From: Kribbella jejuensis
GTDB lineage: Bacteria > Actinomycetota > Actinomycetes > Propionibacteriales > Kribbellaceae
DNA: 64,000 nucleotides
Reading direction: 5' to 3'
Assembly: GCF_006715085.1 (NCBI RefSeq)
Contig: NZ_VFMM01000002.1
Coordinates: 1,426,001-1,490,000, forward strand
Shown: positions 21,801 to 29,056 of the stretch, piece after piece
Layout of the letters: every line of letters begins with the position of its first letter
Numbering within the stretch: the stretch's first letter is position 1
The notes under the pieces: generated by a model
The model's database searches: none
Told to the model about the DNA's origin: nothing
The model's input: only the letters and a program-made list of their open reading frames with translations
Program-made: the position numbers and the translations under genes

Positions 21801-22430
21801 ATGCGGTTGCTGACGGTCAACGTGGTGGAGAAGCTCATTCCGGGTCCTAAGGAGACCGGATTCACCGCGATCGACAAGCGGCCGCAGCTCGGCCGGATCC
21901 GTGTCCGCCCGCTCGGGCTGGAGGGTGACCGTGTCTGCGATACCGCGAACCACGGCGGCCCGGACCTCGCCCTCTACGCGTACGCCGACGAGGACGCGAA
22001 GTGGTGGGCTCAAGAACTCGGCCGCGACATCCCGACCGGTCTGTTCGGCGAGAACCTGCGCACCGAGGGCCTCGACGTCAACGGCGCGCTGCTCGGTGAG
22101 GTGTGGCGGATCGGCGCCGAGGTCGAGGTGATGGTGCGCGCGCCGCGGATCCCGTGCATCACGTTCCAGCACCGGATGCAGCTCCCGCGCTGGGTCAAGC
22201 GCTTCCACCAGGCCGGTCGCCCCGGCGCGTACCTGAAGGTGCTCCGCGAGGGCACGATCGGCGCCGGCGACCCGATCGAGATCGTCAGCCGACCGGACCA
22301 CGAGGTCACCGTCGCGCACATGTTCGGCGAGCAGGACCCGGGCAAGCTGCGCGCGATGCTCGATTCGGGTGTCGACCTGATGGGCGAGATCCGCGAGAAC
22401 GCCCAGCGGATCGCGGCCCGTGGTGAGTGA
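21801..22430 (+). CDS. MOSC domain protein
   Basis: 209 residues of the YiiM-like MOSC group, which binds molybdenum cofactor sulfur or handles N-hydroxylated compounds. Visible: GLEGDRVCDTANHGGPD, GENLRTEGLDVN and the conserved Cys in PRIPCITFQ. The ATG at 21801 has GGGAGAGG about 8 bases upstream; longer frames lack a ribosome-binding site. It overlaps the next MFS gene by 11 bases. Confidence 0.88.
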   Translation: MRLLTVNVVEKLIPGPKETGFTAIDKRPQLGRIRVRPLGLEGDRVCDTANHGGPDLALYAYADEDAKWWAQELGRDIPTGLFGENLRTEGLDVNGALLGEVWRIGAEVEVMVRAPRIPCITFQHRMQLPRWVKRFHQAGRPGAYLKVLREGTIGAGDPIEIVSRPDHEVTVAHMFGEQDPGKLRAMLDSGVDLMGEIRENAQRIAARGE

Positions 22431-23658
22431 GCTGTCGACCGGCGCTCGTGGTGTGCTGCCGGCACCCGGCCCGTTGCGCCCGCTGGCTCTCGCCACCCTG
22501 CTGAGCAGGGTCGGCAACGGCCTGCTGATGACGGTAAGCGTCCTGTACTTCAACCGGATCGTCGGCCTCAGCATCGCCCAGGTCGGCCTCGGGCTCACCG
22601 TCGCAGGCCTGTTCGGGCTGTTGTCCGCCGTACCGCTCGGGCATCTCGCCGACCGGCGCGGCCCGCGCGGGCTCTTCGTCGTACTCAGCCTGATCCTCTG
22701 CGCGCTCTCGCTGGTCTACCTGTTCGTGCAGAACTTCTGGCAGTTCCTGGTCGTGAGCATCGTGCTGACAATGATCGACCGCGGCGCGGGCGCGGTCCGG
22801 GCGGCCCTGATCGCCGCGATCACCACCGGTGCGGGCCGGGTCGCGGCGCGTGCGTACCTGCGGGCCGTCACCAACATCGGCATCATGCTCGGCGCGGCCG
22901 TCGGTGCGTTCGCGCTGCATTTCGACACCGGTACGGCGTACCGCCTGATGTTCGTGCTCGACGCGGTGTTGAGCAGTGTCGCGGCGCTAGTCGTACTGGC
23001 GATCCCGCGGGTGGCGCCGCAGCCGCATGACGACGGCCGGCCGGTGTGGATCGCGTTGCGCGACCGCGGGTACCTCGCGGTGGCCGCGCTGAACGCCGGG
23101 ATGAGCATCCATTTCGCGGTGCTCGATGTCGCGATCCCGCTGTGGGTGGTCGATCACACCGACGCCCCGCGGTGGACGGTCGCGGTGCTGCTGATCATCA
23201 ACACCGTAGTGGTCTCGTTGTTCCAGGTGCGCTCGTCGCGCGGTGTCGCCGACCCGACCACCGCGGCCCGTGCCACCCGGACGGCCGGACTGTTGCTGCT
23301 GGCATCGATGATGCTGATGGCCGGCGCCACCTGGGGCAACGCGGTGACCGCGGTCGCGCTGCTCGCCGTCGGCGCGTTCGTCCAGGTGATCGGGGAACTG
23401 CTGCAGTCGTCGGGTTCGTTCCTGCTCAGCTTCGACGTCGCGCCCGGCCACGCCCAGGGCCAGTACCAGGGCGTCTGGAACACCAGCATGTCGATCAGCA
23501 CCATGGTCGCCCCGACCGTCCTCGCCCTGCTCCCACTCGGCCTGGGCGTCCCCGGTTGGATCATCCTCGGCGTGTGGTTCGCTCTCGTCGGCGTCCTGTT
23601 CGTGCCGGTCGTCCGCTGGGCCGAACGGAACCGCAGTACCGCACTTCTTGCGACTTAG
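22420..23658 (+). CDS. MFS transporter (first of a tandem pair)
   Basis: 412 residues with about 12 membrane helices. The A-motif GHLADRRGPR follows helix 2, and it has the conserved GAVFG-like packing seen in drug and sugar exporters. Starts at GTG 22420 (the next codon is also GTG), overlapping the MOSC stop. It is closely similar along its whole length to the next gene, so the pair arose by duplication. Substrate unknown. Confidence 0.87.
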   Translation: MVSELSTGARGVLPAPGPLRPLALATLLSRVGNGLLMTVSVLYFNRIVGLSIAQVGLGLTVAGLFGLLSAVPLGHLADRRGPRGLFVVLSLILCALSLVYLFVQNFWQFLVVSIVLTMIDRGAGAVRAALIAAITTGAGRVAARAYLRAVTNIGIMLGAAVGAFALHFDTGTAYRLMFVLDAVLSSVAALVVLAIPRVAPQPHDDGRPVWIALRDRGYLAVAALNAGMSIHFAVLDVAIPLWVVDHTDAPRWTVAVLLIINTVVVSLFQVRSSRGVADPTTAARATRTAGLLLLASMMLMAGATWGNAVTAVALLAVGAFVQVIGELLQSSGSFLLSFDVAPGHAQGQYQGVWNTSMSISTMVAPTVLALLPLGLGVPGWIILGVWFALVGVLFVPVVRWAERNRSTALLAT

Positions 23659-23682
23659 TCGCAGATAGCTCATGATGGGCCG

Positions 23683-24894
23683 GTGCGGAAGCTGCTGCCG
23701 GCGCCAGGTCCGCTGCGCCCGTTGGCGCTGGCGACCCTGCTCAGCCGGGTCGGCAACGGCCTGCTGATGACAATCAGCGTGCTGTACTTCACCCGCGTCG
23801 TCGGGCTGTCGATCGCGCAGGTCGGCCTCGGCCTGACCGTGGCCGGTCTGTTCGGCCTGCTCGCGAGCATCCCGTTCGGCCACCTCGCTGACCGGCGCGG
23901 ACCGCGCACGCTGTTCGTGGTGCTGAGCCTGCTGATGTCCGCGACCGCGGTGCTCTACATCGTGATCGGCACGTTCTGGCAGTTCCTTGCGGTCGCGACC
24001 GTTGTCGTCGTCCTGGACCGCGGCTCGAACGCAGTCCGCTTCGCGCTCATCGCCGGTGTCGTGCAAGGCCCCGAGCGCGTCGGGGCCCGTGCGTACCTGC
24101 GGTCGATGACCAACATCGGCGTCACCGCGGGCGCCGGCCTCGGCGCGATCGCACTGTCCTTCGGTACGGCGACGTCGTACCGGCTGATGTTCGGCCTGTA
24201 CGTCGTACTCGGCGTGATCGCGGCACTCGTCGTGCTCGCCGTACCACGGGTCGCGCCCCAGCCGCGTACGGACGGACCGGTGTGGATCGCGCTCCGCGAC
24301 CGTGGGTACCTGGCGGTGGGCGCGCTGAACGCCGCGATCTCCATCCATTACTCGGTGATCGACGTCGCGATCCCGCTGTGGGTGGTCGAACACACCGACG
24401 CGCCGCACTGGGCGGCCGCTGTACCGCTGATCGTGAACGCCGCCGGGGTCGCCGTCCTGCAGGTCCGGGCGTCCCGGGGCATCGTCGACACCACCTCGGC
24501 CGCGCGCGCCACCCGAACCGCCGGATTGTTGCTCTTGGCATCGATGGTGCTGTTCGCGGCCGCGTCGGCGGGTGCTGCTCTGGTGGCCGTGGCGGTCCTG
24601 GTGATTGCCGCGTCGGTGCAGACCGCCGGCGAACTGTTGCAGTCGTCCGGATCGTTCCTGCTCGGGTTCGACCTCGCCCTGGAGCAGGCCCAAGGTCAGT
24701 ACCAGGGCGTCTGGAACACGAGTACGTCGGTCAGTTCGATGGTCGCGCCATCGATCATGGCGCTGCTCCCGCTCGGTCTCGGCGTACCGGGCTGGATCGT
24801 CCTCGGCGGATGGTTCGCGCTCGTCGGTGTCCTGTTCGTGCCGGTGGTGCGCTGGGCGTCAGGGCGTCGGCTCGCGGTAGCCGAGCGCGGCTGA
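23683..24894 (+). CDS. MFS transporter (second of a tandem pair)
   Basis: 403 residues. Shares long identical blocks with the preceding gene, for example PGPLRPLALATLLSRVGNGL, GHLADRRGPR, WIALRDRGYLAV and QGQYQGVWNTS. The second copy lacks the ~10-residue N-terminal lead of the first. GTG start at 23683. Its last 36 bases overlap the convergent IclR gene. Confidence 0.87.
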   Translation: MRKLLPAPGPLRPLALATLLSRVGNGLLMTISVLYFTRVVGLSIAQVGLGLTVAGLFGLLASIPFGHLADRRGPRTLFVVLSLLMSATAVLYIVIGTFWQFLAVATVVVVLDRGSNAVRFALIAGVVQGPERVGARAYLRSMTNIGVTAGAGLGAIALSFGTATSYRLMFGLYVVLGVIAALVVLAVPRVAPQPRTDGPVWIALRDRGYLAVGALNAAISIHYSVIDVAIPLWVVEHTDAPHWAAAVPLIVNAAGVAVLQVRASRGIVDTTSAARATRTAGLLLLASMVLFAAASAGAALVAVAVLVIAASVQTAGELLQSSGSFLLGFDLALEQAQGQYQGVWNTSTSVSSMVAPSIMALLPLGLGVPGWIVLGGWFALVGVLFVPVVRWASGRRLAVAERG

Positions 24895-25623
24895 GATCTT
24901 GCGGGCGGCCTCGATCGCGGCGGGGGCCATCAGAGCTACCTGGGCGATCGACTGCTCGAGGGACAGGGTGGAGATGCTGACCGCGGCGATCGCGGCGCCG
25001 GTGTGGTCGTGGATGACGGCGGCCACGCAGCGGATGCCTGGCTCGTTCTCCTCGTCGTCCAGGGCGTAACCACGGGCGCGGGTCTGAGCGAGGTCAGCCT
25101 TCAGCGCGGCGGCGGTCGTGTGGGTGAGCGGCGTCCGGGCCGGCAGACCGGTGCGCGTGATGTGGACGTCGAGCGATTCGTCGTCCTTCTCGGCGAGCAG
25201 GGCCTTGCCGATGCCGGTGCAGTGCAGCCAGATCGCCTTGCCGACGCGGGACGGCATCCGGTACGGCTTCGGGCCGTCGAGGCGGGCGACGTAGATCGCC
25301 TCGTCGCCGTTCAGCAAGCCGACGTGCACGGTGCAGCGGGTCTGTGCGACCAGGTCCGCGAGCACCGGACGGGCCACCGTGGCCAGGTCGACGTTCGTCA
25401 GCGCGTGGCCGGCCAGCCGCAGCGCCTTCGGGCCGGGGTGGTACGACCCGTCCTCGGCCTGAGCGACGAACTCGTGCTCGACCAGCGACGCCATGATCCG
25501 ATGCACGGTCGATTTGGCCAGTCCGGTCGCGTTCACCACGTCGGTGAACCGCGAGTGCTCCAGTACGGCGTCCAGCACCATCAACGTCTTGTCGATGGCC
25601 GAAGGCGAATCCATGCCCGACAT
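24859..25623 (-). CDS. IclR family regulator of the uronate (kdu) genes
   Basis: 254 residues. N-terminal winged helix: MDSPSAIDKTLMVLDAVLEH, then TDVVNATGLAKSTVHRIMASL (recognition helix); the C-terminal ligand domain has IYVARLDGP and TGIGKALLAE. KdgR-like IclR proteins bind uronate breakdown products. The start at 25623 has a GGAG element 8-11 bases upstream; a longer frame to 25653 lacks one. It is followed, in the same direction, by kduD upstream, so it forms the end of a kduI-kduD-iclR operon. Candidate binding sites are listed at 27214-27310. Confidence 0.88.
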   Translation of the reverse strand: MSGMDSPSAIDKTLMVLDAVLEHSRFTDVVNATGLAKSTVHRIMASLVEHEFVAQAEDGSYHPGPKALRLAGHALTNVDLATVARPVLADLVAQTRCTVHVGLLNGDEAIYVARLDGPKPYRMPSRVGKAIWLHCTGIGKALLAEKDDESLDVHITRTGLPARTPLTHTTAAALKADLAQTRARGYALDDEENEPGIRCVAAVIHDHTGAAIAAVSISTLSLEQSIAQVALMAPAAIEAARKISAALGYREPTP

Positions 25624-25633
25624 CCTGCCACTC

Positions 25634-26386
25634 CTATCTCGCCAGCCAGCCACCGTCGACCGCCAGGACGTGGCCGTTGACGTAGTCCGCCGCCGCGGAC
25701 GCGAGGAACACCGCCGCGCCGACGACGTCCTCCGGCCGCCCCCAGCGGCCGGCCGGAATACGCTGCCGGATCGCCGCCTCCCGGTCCGGGTCCGCCTGGA
25801 GTGCGGTGGTGTTGCCGGTACTGATGTACCCGGGCGCGATCGCGTTCACCTGGACACCGGCCGGTCCCCACTCGTTGGCCAGCGCCCGGGTCAGCCCCGC
25901 CACTGCGTGCTTGCTGGCCGTGTAGGCCGGGACGGTGATCCCGCCCTGGAAGCTGAGCAACGACGCGATCGTGACGATCTTCCCGTCACCGCGTTCGGCC
26001 ATCGCCGCGCCGACCGGCCGCGTCACCGCCCACGTCGAGTTGAGATTCACGTCGATGACGTGCTGCCAGTCGGCGGTCGTCGTCTCGGCCGCGGGCGCCC
26101 GGCGGATCGTGCCGGCGTTGTTGACCAGGATGTCGACCCTCCGATGGTCGACGATCTCCGCGGCGGCTCGTTCGACCGCGGCCGGATCGGCGAAGTCCGC
26201 GATCACCACCGTCGCGTCGCCGCCGTTCTGCTTGATCGCCTCGAGGGTCTCCTCGAGCGCCGCGTCCCGGGCCATCAGGATCAGCTCGGCCCCGGCCGCG
26301 GCGTACCCGGCCGCGATAGCCGCGCCGATCCCGCGCCGCGCGCCGGTGACCAGCGCCGTCCGGCCTTCCAGGCTGAACAACGTCAC
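25634..26386 (-). CDS. kduD: 2-dehydro-3-deoxy-D-gluconate 5-dehydrogenase (KduD-like SDR)
   Basis: 250-residue classical SDR: TGARRGIGAAIA cofactor loop, NNAGT, catalytic Ser in SLLSFQ, YTASK, and DGGWLAR at the end. KduD reduces 2,5-diketo-3-deoxygluconate to 2-keto-3-deoxygluconate with NAD(H). The assignment rests mainly on coupling to kduI: the GTG start (26386) overlaps the kduI TGA. It lies 10 bases upstream of the regulator gene. Confidence 0.88.
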   Translation of the reverse strand: MTLFSLEGRTALVTGARRGIGAAIAAGYAAAGAELILMARDAALEETLEAIKQNGGDATVVIADFADPAAVERAAAEIVDHRRVDILVNNAGTIRRAPAAETTTADWQHVIDVNLNSTWAVTRPVGAAMAERGDGKIVTIASLLSFQGGITVPAYTASKHAVAGLTRALANEWGPAGVQVNAIAPGYISTGNTTALQADPDREAAIRQRIPAGRWGRPEDVVGAAVFLASAAADYVNGHVLAVDGGWLAR

Positions 26387-27207
26387 CGCAGATCCCGCAC
26401 GTCGACACCGTCCATGTCGCCGAACGCCTGGTTCTCGCCGGCCATCGCCCAGACGAAGCTGTACGACGAGGTGCCGCAGCCGGAGTGGATCGACCAGCTG
26501 GGGGAGATGACCGCCTGCCGGTCGGCGACCAGCAGATGCCGGGTCTCCTCGGGTTCGCCGAGCAGGTGGACGATCCGCTCGGTCTCCGGCAGGCCGAAGT
26601 ACAGGTAGCACTCGGTACGCCGGTCGTGGGTGTGCGCGGGCATCGTGTTCCACGTACTGCCCGCGTGCAGCGTCGTCACGCCGAGGACGATCTGGCAGCT
26701 CTGCACCCCGTCGGCGTGGATGAACTGGTCGATGGTCCGGCGGTTCGCGGTCTGCTGATCGCCCAGTTCGAGCCGGTTGCCTTCGCCGGGGTTCACCTGC
26801 CTGGTCGGGAAGGCGGTGTGAGCGGGCGCCGAGAACACGTAGTACGCCGCTTCGGGCCCTTCGAAGACGACCTCGCGGACGCCACGTCCGACGTACAAGC
26901 AGGCGCCGCTGGTCAGCTCGTACTTCGTGCCGTCGGCGGTGACCGTGCCGGGTACGCCGACGTTGACGATCCCGGCCTCGCGGCGTTCGAGGAAGTACTC
27001 GCTGCGCAGCTCGGGGTAGGTGCCGAGCGTCAGCGGCCCGTCGGTGGGACGGGCGCCGGCGAGCACGATCCGGTCGTGGTGGGTGAGTACCGCGTTGACG
27101 GCGCCGGGGACGAACAGGTCGTCCACCAGGTAGTGGCGGCGCAGCGCGGCCGTGTCGAAGCCTGGCACCTGCTCGGGATGGGTCGCGTGCCTGATCTGCA
27201 ATGTCAC
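26383..27207 (-). CDS. kduI: 5-dehydro-4-deoxy-D-glucuronate isomerase
   Basis: 274 residues, full KduI length. Isomerises 5-keto-4-deoxyuronate, formed from unsaturated uronate released by polysaccharide lyases, to the substrate of KduD. Family blocks: RHYLVDDLF, AGARPTDGPL, cupin zinc ligands in MPAHTHDRRTE and SIHSGCG. GTG start at 27207, very close to a predicted promoter, so the mRNA may be leaderless. Divergent from the SSS transporter. Confidence 0.93.
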   Translation of the reverse strand: MTLQIRHATHPEQVPGFDTAALRRHYLVDDLFVPGAVNAVLTHHDRIVLAGARPTDGPLTLGTYPELRSEYFLERREAGIVNVGVPGTVTADGTKYELTSGACLYVGRGVREVVFEGPEAAYYVFSAPAHTAFPTRQVNPGEGNRLELGDQQTANRRTIDQFIHADGVQSCQIVLGVTTLHAGSTWNTMPAHTHDRRTECYLYFGLPETERIVHLLGEPEETRHLLVADRQAVISPSWSIHSGCGTSSYSFVWAMAGENQAFGDMDGVDVRDLR

Positions 27208-27213
27208 GGAACA

Positions 27214-27234
27214 AGGTTCTACTCAGCGGAACGC
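27214..27234. promoter_or_regulatory. Operator-like site 1 at the kduI promoter
   Basis: AGGTTC-N9-GAACGC immediately upstream of kduI. The spacer TACTCAGCG resembles that of the second site. A minus-strand TTGACA (27237-27242) lies 17 bases from the sequence GAACCT (minus strand, 27214-27219), so a repressor here would cover the promoter. The -10 match is weak. Confidence 0.6.
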
Positions 27235-27245
27235 ACTGTCAACGC

Positions 27246-27270
27246 TGGAACATAGCGTCGAAATGTTCCA
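27246..27270. promoter_or_regulatory. Central perfect palindrome between kduI and the SSS gene
   Basis: TGGAACAT (27246-27253) and ATGTTCCA (27263-27270) are perfect inverted 8-bp arms with a 9-base spacer, the same spacing as the two flanking AGGTTC/GAAC sites. Typical geometry for an IclR-type operator. Confidence 0.65.
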
Positions 27271-27289
27271 AGTTCCGTATCTTGACACT

Positions 27290-27310
27290 AGGTTCTGTTC
27301 AGTGGAACCT
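27290..27310. promoter_or_regulatory. Operator-like site 2 at the SSS transporter promoter
   Basis: AGGTTC-TGTTCAGTG-GAACCT, a perfect inverted repeat with 9-base spacer. A plus-strand TTGACA lies at 27282-27287; the GAACCT arm is 17 bases after it and would occupy the -10 position. Confidence 0.65.
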
Positions 27311-27347
27311 CTCAAGCACTCGCCCCACGCCCCTGGGAGGATCCCCG

Positions 27348-28844
27348 ATGACCGCTCTGGACTGGACCGTCCTGGTCGGCTATTTCGTGTTGATGGTGCT
27401 GATCGGCGTCTGGTCGCGCACCAAGATCAAGACGGTCGTGGACTACTTCACGACCGGCGGCCGGATCCCGTGGTGGCTGTCCGGCATCTCGCACCACATG
27501 TCCGGCTACAGCGCGGTGATGTTCGTCGCCTTCGCCGCGGTCGCCTACTCGTACGGCATCACCGTCTACGTCTGGTGGGCGATGACGATCGGGATCGGCG
27601 TCGGCATCGGGGCGTTCCTGTTCGCGGCCCGCTGGAACCGGTTGCGCGCGAAACACGGGGTCGTGTCGCCGCTGGAGTACCTCGCGCGGCGCTACAACCT
27701 GCCGACGCAGCAGGCGCTCGCGTACTCCGGTGCCGCGCTCAAGGTCGTCGACATCGCGTCCAAGTGGGTCGCGATCGCCGTCCTGCTGAACGGTTTCACC
27801 GGCGTACCGATCCGGTGGGGCATCCTGCTGACCGGCGTGGTGACGATGCTGTACGCGACGCTCGGCGGGTTGTGGGCCGACGTACTCACCGACTTCGGGC
27901 AGTTCGTGATCCAGTTCGGGGCCGGTGTCGCGATGTTCATCGGGGTGCTGCACCACCTGGACGGCGTACCGACGCTGTGGAAGATGTGGGACCAGTTGCC
28001 GGCCGGGCACGGGCACGCGCTGAACGGGCCCTACACACCGGTCTTCCTGGTCGCGTTCCTGTTCATCAAAACCTTCGAGTACAACGGCGGCATGTGGAAC
28101 CTGGCGCAGCGCTACATGGCCGCGCCGTCCGGCTCCGAGGCGAAGCGCTCCGCGTTGCTGTCCTCGGTGCTGTGGCTGGTCTGGCCGCTGATCCTGTTCA
28201 TCCCGATGTGCGCGGCGCCGTTGCTCGTGCACCCGGGCAAGCCGGAGCAGTCGTACGTGCAGCTGGCGCAGTTGCTGTTGCCGAGCGGTTTGATCGGGCT
28301 GGTGCTGGCCGGGTTCTTCTCGCACACGATGGCGATGGTGGCCTCGGACGCGAACGCGATCTCGTCGGTGATCACCCGGGACCTCGCGCCGGTACTGGTA
28401 CCACGGGTGCGCCGGTTGACCGACGGCGCGACGCTGAAGATGGCGCGGATCGTGACGTTCACATTCGTCACGGTGAGCATGCTGATCGCGATCGCCACCA
28501 ATGGCGAGGGCGTCGTGCTCAAGATCGTCGTCGACCTGGTCGCGGCCACGATGGGTCCGATCGCGATCCCGTTGATGCTCGGGCTGCTGCCCTGGTTCCG
28601 GCGGAGTGGCTCGCGGGCCGCACTGGCGTCCTGGGCGATCGGGCTGATCGCGTGGGCGATCGTCAAGTACGGCGTCGGATCCACCGACCAGACGCTGGTC
28701 GTTGCGTTGCCGTTGGCAACCTCTCTGGTGGTGTACGTGGGCCTCGGTCTGCTGCTGCCGGAGAACCGCGGGGACGTCGAGGAATTGGTCGACTCCCTGA
28801 ACACCGATCCGGTCGCCGCCCGCCGGGCGGCGGCCCTGTCCTGA
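27348..28844 (+). CDS. Sodium:solute symporter family transporter
   Basis: 498 residues with about 13 membrane helices, SSS family layout. VDYFTTGGRIPWWLSGIS and the later LYATLGGLWADVLTDFGQF are recognisable sodium-symporter blocks. The divergent kduI-kduD suggests it imports uronates or uronate oligomers. ATG at 27348, GGGAGG 8 bases upstream. The frame extending to 27201 overlaps the promoter and is not real. Confidence 0.88.
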   Translation: MTALDWTVLVGYFVLMVLIGVWSRTKIKTVVDYFTTGGRIPWWLSGISHHMSGYSAVMFVAFAAVAYSYGITVYVWWAMTIGIGVGIGAFLFAARWNRLRAKHGVVSPLEYLARRYNLPTQQALAYSGAALKVVDIASKWVAIAVLLNGFTGVPIRWGILLTGVVTMLYATLGGLWADVLTDFGQFVIQFGAGVAMFIGVLHHLDGVPTLWKMWDQLPAGHGHALNGPYTPVFLVAFLFIKTFEYNGGMWNLAQRYMAAPSGSEAKRSALLSSVLWLVWPLILFIPMCAAPLLVHPGKPEQSYVQLAQLLLPSGLIGLVLAGFFSHTMAMVASDANAISSVITRDLAPVLVPRVRRLTDGATLKMARIVTFTFVTVSMLIAIATNGEGVVLKIVVDLVAATMGPIAIPLMLGLLPWFRRSGSRAALASWAIGLIAWAIVKYGVGSTDQTLVVALPLATSLVVYVGLGLLLPENRGDVEELVDSLNTDPVAARRAAALS

Positions 28845-28870: not shown

Positions 28871-29056
28871 ATGCCGAACATCACCGTCGAACTGCTCTCC
28901 GGCCGCACCCTCGACCAGCGCCGCGAGTTCGTCGCCGCCGTCACCGACTCCGCGATCGCCATCCTCGGCGCCAAACGCGAATCCGTCCGCATCGTGTTCC
29001 AGGAGATCGAAACCACCGACGTAGCCAACGGCGGCACCCTGGTCGCCGACGCCTGA
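28871..29056 (+). CDS. 4-oxalocrotonate tautomerase-like protein
   Basis: 61 residues, the size of the 4-OT family. The mature N-terminal residue is Pro (MPNITVELL), the catalytic base; the Arg-rich RTLDQRREFV helix fits. It lies 26 bases after the transporter with AGGAG upstream, in the same transcript. It may tautomerise a keto-sugar acid intermediate of uronate catabolism; this is inference from location. Confidence 0.85.
   Translation: MPNITVELLSGRTLDQRREFVAAVTDSAIAILGAKRESVRIVFQEIETTDVANGGTLVADA

Follow-up and report, generated by a model that had tools for sequence, protein, structure and literature searches.

The intergenic region between kduI and a divergently oriented symporter gene of Kribbella jejuensis appears to control a small uronate (5-keto-4-deoxyuronate) utilisation regulon. 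We propose that this regulon comprises kduI-kduD-iclR, the symporter gene and a tautomerase gene, and that the linked IclR protein is its regulator. Within the window, by which we mean the whole 64,000-nucleotide stretch of DNA analysed, the region would harbor two sigma-70-type promoters (TTGACA-N17-GAACCT) pointing apart, each overlaid in its spacer and -10 region by a 17-bp convergent GTTC-N9-GAAC site in equal register. On the kduI side, an extra half-site lies N3 further on, between the -10 region and the start codon; its counterpart near the symporter promoter is found at -45, displaced upstream by 20 bp (two helical turns). The IclR protein would bind as a dimer of dimers, block the RNA polymerase at both promoters and be released by a pathway intermediate such as 2-keto-3-deoxygluconate. 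The kduI transcript is predicted to begin at the G of the GTG start codon, that of the symporter gene to possess a leader of approximately 31 nt with a Shine-Dalgarno sequence. We regard this explanation in its entirety, i.e., a uronate regulon with shared IclR-type operators, repression and a leaderless kduI mRNA, as probable: sequence comparison yielded the promoter-like hexamers, the half-sites, their spacings, the position of the GTG and the linkage of iclR, from which we infer binding, repression, the inducer and the exact 5' ends. The parts are of known kinds; as judged from the aligned sequences, the way they fit together is unusually clear and common to nearly all relatives examined. 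The locus may serve as a base-resolved, genus-wide case in which each of two divergent promoters has bases in common with an IclR-type operator.

The genes were assigned by means of protein family models. kduI (26383..27207, minus strand) encodes a 5-dehydro-4-deoxy-D-glucuronate isomerase (NCBIfam NF002091, 390.6 bits, cut-off 250). Its stop codon is overlapped by the GTG start of kduD (25634..26386, minus strand), as read in the sequence. The kduD product is a 2-dehydro-3-deoxy-D-gluconate 5-dehydrogenase-like SDR, whose top NCBIfam matches were KduD models, with scores slightly below the respective cut-offs (332.3 vs 369 and 328.5 vs 338.85). The third gene in this direction (24859..25623, minus strand) encodes an IclR-family transcription factor, as both Pfam domains, HTH_IclR (1.6e-12) and IclR_C (8.2e-46), exceeded the gathering threshold. 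On the plus strand, a gene for a transporter of the sodium:solute symporter family (27348..28844; Pfam SSF, 1.8e-32) starts with ATG at 27348, 140 bases apart from the kduI GTG at 27207 on the minus strand. It is preceded by the Shine-Dalgarno sequence GGGAGG (27335..27340, plus strand), which was read in the sequence and seen in many aligned rows. The gene of a tautomerase-family protein (28871..29056, plus strand; Pfam Tautomerase, 7.8e-14) follows 26 nt 3' of the symporter gene and has no operator of its own in the window. Two adjoining transporter-like genes (412 and 403 aa), by eye paralogues, reside at 22420-24894. A published description of this uronate locus was not found in the open-access library searched, where Kribbella and kduI occurred together in no paper.

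On the kduI side, the -35 hexamer TTGACA is located at 27237..27242 and the -10 hexamer GAACCT at 27214..27219 (both minus strand), the latter covering -12 to -7 if the G of GTG is +1. The corresponding hexamers of the symporter promoter lie at 27282..27287 and 27305..27310 (plus strand). An earlier note on this DNA had pointed to TTGACA-N17-GAACCT at each divergent promoter, and indeed these two copies, one per strand, are the only ones that a search of both strands of the 64 kb disclosed. The note had also described three inverted repeats with matching geometry. We located them as AGGTTC-N9-GAAC at 27214-27232, AGGTTC-N9-GAACCT at 27290-27310 and a central palindrome TGGAACAT-N9-ATGTTCCA at 27246-27270. 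All three share the N9 spacer, but they differ in half-site orientation, which is divergent in the central pair (GGAAC...GTTCC, N13) and convergent in the outer sites (GTTC...GAAC, N9). Nor are they three equal sites, since the operator on the kduI side comprises three half-sites, GTTC-N9-GAAC-N3-GTTC (27209..27232, read on the minus strand from 27232 to 27209); it starts in the spacer between -35 and -10 and stops one base short of the GTG. Its third half-site, GTTC at 27209-27212 between the kduI -10 region and the GTG, had been overlooked. This exact three-box string occurs as a single copy in the window's genome. The symporter-side operator GTTC-N9-GAAC (27292..27308, plus strand) takes the same register to its promoter as that on the kduI side. 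Relative to the symporter promoter, a further GTTC (27272..27275, plus strand) occupies -45 to -42; it lies 20 bases 5' of the next GTTC, giving the arrangement GTTC-N16-GTTC-N9-GAAC.

Altogether, nine GTTC/GAAC boxes were found within 113 bases, the highest box density in the window; segments of this length with at least eight boxes begin only from 27188 to 27216. GTTC-N9-GAAC has three copies in the 64 kb, two of them in the kduI/symporter intergenic region. A consensus promoter scan of the locus called no promoter, and the -10 hexamer GAACCT matches TANNNT poorly, as A-11 and T-7 are kept and T-12 is absent. GGAAC is a common -35 element of ECF sigma factors, so that the GGAAC motifs might be taken for ECF promoters. 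We rejected this reading, which is extremely unlikely: the conserved string approximately 35 bases 5' of the GTG is TTGACA and not GGAAC, and the half-sites occur in both orientations with start-to-start spacings of 7, 13 and 20.

Conservation provided a stronger test of the region than shuffle statistics of the central palindrome. We compared 38 Kribbella genomes including that of the window, 37 of which possess kduI, and aligned the 37 kduI loci (L031-L067). TTGACA-N4-GTTC-N9-GAAC was found exactly in 36 of the 38 genomes, every match residing at the kduI locus. The two others were G010, whose kduI locus deviates by one mismatch, and G022, which lacks kduI. An off-by-one control with N3 instead of N4 yielded no exact and 36 one-mismatch matches in the 38 genomes. 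The kduI-side alignment was anchored on the -10 region by a pattern that matched exactly once in each of the 37 loci and that fixes most letters of the -10 hexamer and the start codon by construction. It revealed 0 to 6 deviants per column at -35 to -30 (n=37), GTTC at -25 in at least 36/37 per column, and GTTC at -5 with a weakest column of 34/37. The -10 hexamer reads (G/A)AAC(C/T)T, with A-11 and T-7 in all 37 loci, A at -12 in one locus and T at -8 in another. T-14 and A-13 were invariant as well (37/37), which the placement of the -10 hexamer does not account for. The codon at +1 is GTG in 36 loci and ATG in one. GTTC-N9-GAAC is present on the kduI side in 35/37 loci, and the complete three-half-site operator is exact in 32/37. 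Mean pairwise identity of the 37 loci amounted to 95% in promoter and box columns versus 44% in the remaining columns of the 52-base stretch that precedes the start codon; columns with at most two deviants made up 21/23 of the element columns versus 2/32 of the others.

The pattern used for the symporter side fixes its own letters and dropped five of the 37 loci (L055, L059, L060, L062 and L066). In the 32 others, 20/20 element columns versus 7/70 other columns were conserved by the same measure. The extra GTTC at -45 was invariant (32/32), and the remaining elements read TTGACAC (one TTGACGC), GTTCTG (one ATTCTG) and TGGAACC (one CGGAACC). GAACC of the -10 hexamer occurred in 32/32 and T-7 in 30/32 anchored loci, and the operator was identified in 32/37 loci, once with ATTC. 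Hence, the comparison across Kribbella supports the suggestion of the earlier note that the divergent promoters are symmetrically built.

In all 30 Kribbella loci checked, the window's own among them, iclR lies directly 3' of kduI-kduD. Together with the genus comparison, this linkage corroborated that the sites probably are operators of the IclR type, as had been presumed. The linked IclR protein is most likely a repressor of both promoters; as iclR occupies third place in the kduI operon, its own gene would be repressed, too. An activator or dual regulator, for which boxes 5' of the -35 elements would recruit the RNA polymerase as with PcaU and PobR, the activators of aromatic catabolism, is unlikely, even though it would agree with the weak -10 elements, with the apparent helical phase of the central pair relative to the kduI -35 hexamer, and with the GTTC that never varies at -45 to -42 in the symporter promoters, a position that also suits an activator. 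The best-conserved sites, however, cover the spacer, the -10 region and +1 of both promoters, which are polymerase-blocking positions. Moreover, both -35 hexamers in the window are perfect TTGACA, which is unusual in activator-dependent promoters, and 12 of the 32 loci with two promoters lack the central pair. Repression by the linked protein remains our preferred reading.

The operators match published types of IclR sites. In the main text of the survey by Suvorova and Gelfand (2021, PMC8222616), the group-1 motif has a subgroup GTT-11-AAC, and the motif of group 2 is TGRAACAN1-2TGTTYCA. Both groups are combined in three-box sites, whose boxes alternate; tandem sites with a spacing of 18-22 nt are described as well. 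The kduI-side operator shares with these sites the GTT-N11-AAC core of 17 bp, to which the third box adds GAAC-N3-GTTC, a group-2 pair. GTT-11-AAC, as a convergent 17-bp palindrome of the GTTYC-N7-GRAAC type, was present on the kduI side in 35/37 and on the symporter side in 32/37 loci (one ATTC). Three-box sites were found on the kduI side (exact in 32/37 loci) and at the tautomerase operators described below, but not on the symporter side, where no GTTC follows the GAAC at N3 and the extra box lies 20 bp upstream instead. This distance of about two helical turns falls within the range of the tandems (PMC8222616). As at the kduI locus, targets of GTT-11-AAC are often sugar or sugar-acid genes according to that text (PMC8222616). 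On the basis of these matches, the locus is a further case of a known kind. It differs from the sites in the survey's main text by one operator that takes equal register on two divergent promoters, and by the central GGAAC-N13-GTTCC, which fits neither published spacing, N9 nor about N3 (PMC8222616). The string 'kdu' does not occur in that main text.

The three-box sites of PcaU, PobR and HmgR (Acinetobacter, Pseudomonas) are given there as likewise consisting of a palindrome and an external half-site in direct repeat, the latter being required for PcaU binding (PMC8222616). Identity of the linked protein with PcaR/PcaU/PobR was rejected, as it scored 150.4 on TIGR02431 (cut-off 284.75). KdgR is an enterobacterial IclR-family repressor of pectin and uronate genes. 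It resembles the linked protein in its family, in the association with kduI/kduD-type genes and in an inducer expected from the same pathway. Nevertheless, the model for KdgR (NF011671) gave 147.6 bits against a cut-off of 275, and this identity was rejected also. KdgR motifs are described as A/T-rich (PMC8222616).

In eight other Kribbella genomes (L183-L190), the tautomerase gene is preceded by a three-box site, GGAACAATGTTCC-N7-AGAAC; these genomes had been chosen because the three-box string was already found near their kduI locus. The first base of the site is 47 to 58 bases away from the second tautomerase codon. A recurrent one-mismatch match approximately 74 to 109 kb from kduI in many genomes was dropped as a second regulon member. 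Its copy in L071 (TTGACAATCAGTTCCAATTAAATGAAAATGATTGTCATGAAA, around 4000) lies at the start of a gene for a metal-binding-type lipoprotein, followed by ABC transporter genes (by eye), and the TGATTGTCATGAAA stretch at this match is presumably Zur-like.

A wider order-level survey disclosed kduI in 87/293 genomes. Outside Kribbella, four of 70 named kduI loci harbored an exact GTTC-N9-GAAC at most 320 nt 5' of kduI. All four belonged to the five loci in which kduD and iclR follow kduI in this order (IclR identity at least 44%) and none to the 65 others, a contrast that is weaker than the figures because in many of the 65 loci kduI is operon-internal, often behind kduD, and its promoter would lie further upstream than the 320 nt covered. 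Among 29 loci sampled across the class, that of the window not counted, six more showed the order kduI-kduD-iclR. The exact GTTC-N9-GAAC was found in none of these six, and their site sequence is clearly different. On inspection, the assumption that they lack the operator was rejected, as five of them contained a degenerate tandem RTTYYATRTARYRRAAY with a start-to-start spacing of 20. In ten of the eleven non-Kribbella kduI-kduD-iclR loci, the tandem scored best at spacing 20 (17-24 tried), above all 200 mononucleotide shuffles; thus, sites of the same class lie 5' of kduI in 10/11 loci (IclR identity at least 44%), L159 without a tandem being the only exception. The consensus was derived by eye from L139 and L153-L157, for which the result is post hoc, and L153-L157 are one family (f20) and not independent; L137, L138, L142, L147 and L073 depend less on it. 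L073, the single Kribbella locus tried, also gave spacing 20 as the best, its second unit being a half-site only. In L127, L167 and L170, which stand outside the eleven counted loci and contain kduI-kduD with an IclR-like gene of 27-40% identity, neither an exact GTTC-N9-GAAC nor, by eye within 250 bases, any such site was detected.

These comparisons bear on whether the linked iclR is a bystander and the boxes are bound by a different regulator, be it an IclR paralogue or a protein of another family. Binding by the linked protein is a prediction, and three-box strings of other sequence recur across the genus, so that paralogues may read similar half-sites. Such strings (GTTCAGGCAAGCTGAACACTGTTC and close variants) were noticed elsewhere in Kribbella, e.g., in G002, G021, G023, G025 and G029, and are perhaps operators of IclR paralogues. 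The constant linkage within Kribbella (30/30) argues for the linked protein, as does the distribution outside the genus (4/5 vs 0/65, with the reservation that kduI is often operon-internal). In addition, the entry of the recognition helix differs with the type of site: it reads GLAKST or GLPKST at loci with GTTC..GAAC sites and GVSKST at loci with RTTYYATRTARYRRAAY. A bystander role of the linked iclR is for these reasons very unlikely.

The earlier note had suggested that the kduI mRNA may be leaderless. Our comparison supports this prediction, since the start codon keeps a fixed position relative to the -10 hexamer. The GTG occupies 27207-27205, and an in-frame stop codon lies 18 bases upstream of it. 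The distance from the -10 region to the start codon is 6 bases in 37/37 loci, and that from the start codon to the conserved RHATH/KHATH of the protein is 5, 6, 7, 9 or 10 codons. A string resembling a Shine-Dalgarno sequence before the kduI start was seen neither in the window nor in any other of the 37 Kribbella loci. In 36/37 loci, no further in-frame ATG, GTG or TTG occurs between the start codon and RHATH/KHATH; in the window, TTG at codon 3 is a possible alternative start. In-frame start codons upstream, inside the promoter, exist in several genomes (e.g., an ATG 27 bases 5' in L054, L060, L061, L064 and L066), none of them being common to all loci.

The N3 between the GAAC and GTTC boxes is AGT, GTA, GTA and AAT in L147, L137, L142 and L138, respectively. 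In Kribbella, the same three bases include T-7 in 37/37 and C-8 in 36/37 loci. Variation in other genera and near-invariance in Kribbella point to a constraint by the promoter rather than by the operator, which by the usual numbering (-35 to -30, -12 to -7) places +1 at the G of GTG. Where other genera possess an operator of this class, it is located further upstream, and an SD-like stretch precedes the ATG, e.g., in L138 and L147. We concluded that a leaderless kduI mRNA starting with the G of GTG is well supported by the alignments. The start codon would then be tied to the promoter and not to a ribosome-binding site.

In Actinobacteria, a -10 signal approximately 12 bp 5' of the start is taken as a mark of leaderless genes in the text of PMC3160421. 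kduI shares with the leaderless genes presented there and in PMC3898074 the -10 region approximately 12 bases before ATG or GTG and the absence of a Shine-Dalgarno sequence. It differs from them in the -10 hexamer, which is GAACCT and not TANNNT and overlaps an operator half-site. Alternatively, transcription of kduI might start further upstream, the leader being translated without a Shine-Dalgarno sequence. The lack of T-12 in the -10 hexamer would be compatible with that, as would the existence of leadered genes without such a sequence, a UTR class separate from the Shine-Dalgarno class in PMC3898074. However, the distance from the -10 region to the start is constant (6 nt, 37/37) and that from the start to the domain variable, TTGACA, A-11 and T-7 are in textbook register with the G of GTG, and a start further 5' would fall within the conserved -35/-10 block. 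Considering also the reading of such -10 positions in Actinobacteria (PMC3160421), a leadered kduI mRNA is improbable and the leaderless form is retained.

The central half-sites are less readily explained. The divergent pair GGAAC-N13-GTTCC (27247..27269) lies within the palindrome at 27246-27270 and was found in 19/37 Kribbella loci, with N14 in one more. The 8-base arms with N9 are restricted to the window's own locus (1/37). When the local DNA was shuffled 2000 times by mononucleotides, 38 shuffles contained some perfect palindrome with 8-base arms and a spacer of 3-20, so that the central palindrome, taken by itself, is only mildly unusual. In the 19 N13 loci, the end of the pair is separated from the kduI -35 hexamer by 4, 14, 15 or 26 bases, i.e., by steps of about one turn. 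The distance between the -35 hexamers of the 32 loci with both promoters is 39 (7 loci), 48-51 (12), 58 (9), 61 (3) or 69 (1) bases. The larger changes of this gap measure 9-12 bases and none 3-8 (by eye), and gaps of 58 and 61 are more than a quarter turn apart. The gap of 39 bases requires at least four changes on a tree of 30 loci, three of them forced by well-supported branches. Of the 32 loci with both promoters, the 12 without the pair are the nine with gap 58, L067, L038 and L046; in terms of spacing, it is missing at gap 58, at gap 69 and in two loci with gap 48. This pattern, which was seen by eye and to which transfer of alleles between lineages may have contributed, suggests that the spacing of central pair and -35 hexamer is kept in helical phase.

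The central half-sites of the window fit the group-2 half-site (TGGAACA/TGTTCCA), their spacing being that of group 2 plus one turn. There is no established explanation for the pair, which is possibly a novel element. Conceivably, it represents a third mode of IclR half-sites (a divergent N3 pair plus one turn), where the pair or the operators are phased to the kduI promoter so that indels of approximately one to two turns, but not of other sizes, are tolerated; an IclR oligomer would bridge or loop both promoters as a shared switch, with a half-site directly before a leaderless start. We put this forward as a speculation, more doubtful than not yet worth considering. The natural series of spacings (39, 48-51, 58, 61 and 69 bases between the -35 hexamers) constitutes a test set for helical phasing and, likewise, for the idea of alternative dimerisation at three-box IclR sites.

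Some loci deviate from the common arrangement. L055 has retained the adjoining symporter gene, but its promoter is altered: a stretch containing GTTCCGCCCCTTG twice stands in place of the promoter/operator, and kduI has the start codon ATG and the -10 hexamer GAACTT. No symporter gene was found within 1.5 kb at L059 and L060, nor at L132, apparently the same contig as L066. L059 and L060 nevertheless retain the kduI-side GTTC-N9-GAAC, and in L059, L060 and L062 additional copies of GTTC-N9-GAAC, or strings resembling it, face an upstream region that is different. Finally, three genomes (L068, L069 and L070) contain a second kduI, 47-49% identical. The DNA 5' of this second gene shows strong conservation in all three (CTTGACCTGTGATCGGAGCCAC(A/G)GGTA, AGCAGAACGTGGTTCAGATAGCGAGGAG) and is unlike the kduI-side operator of the window.
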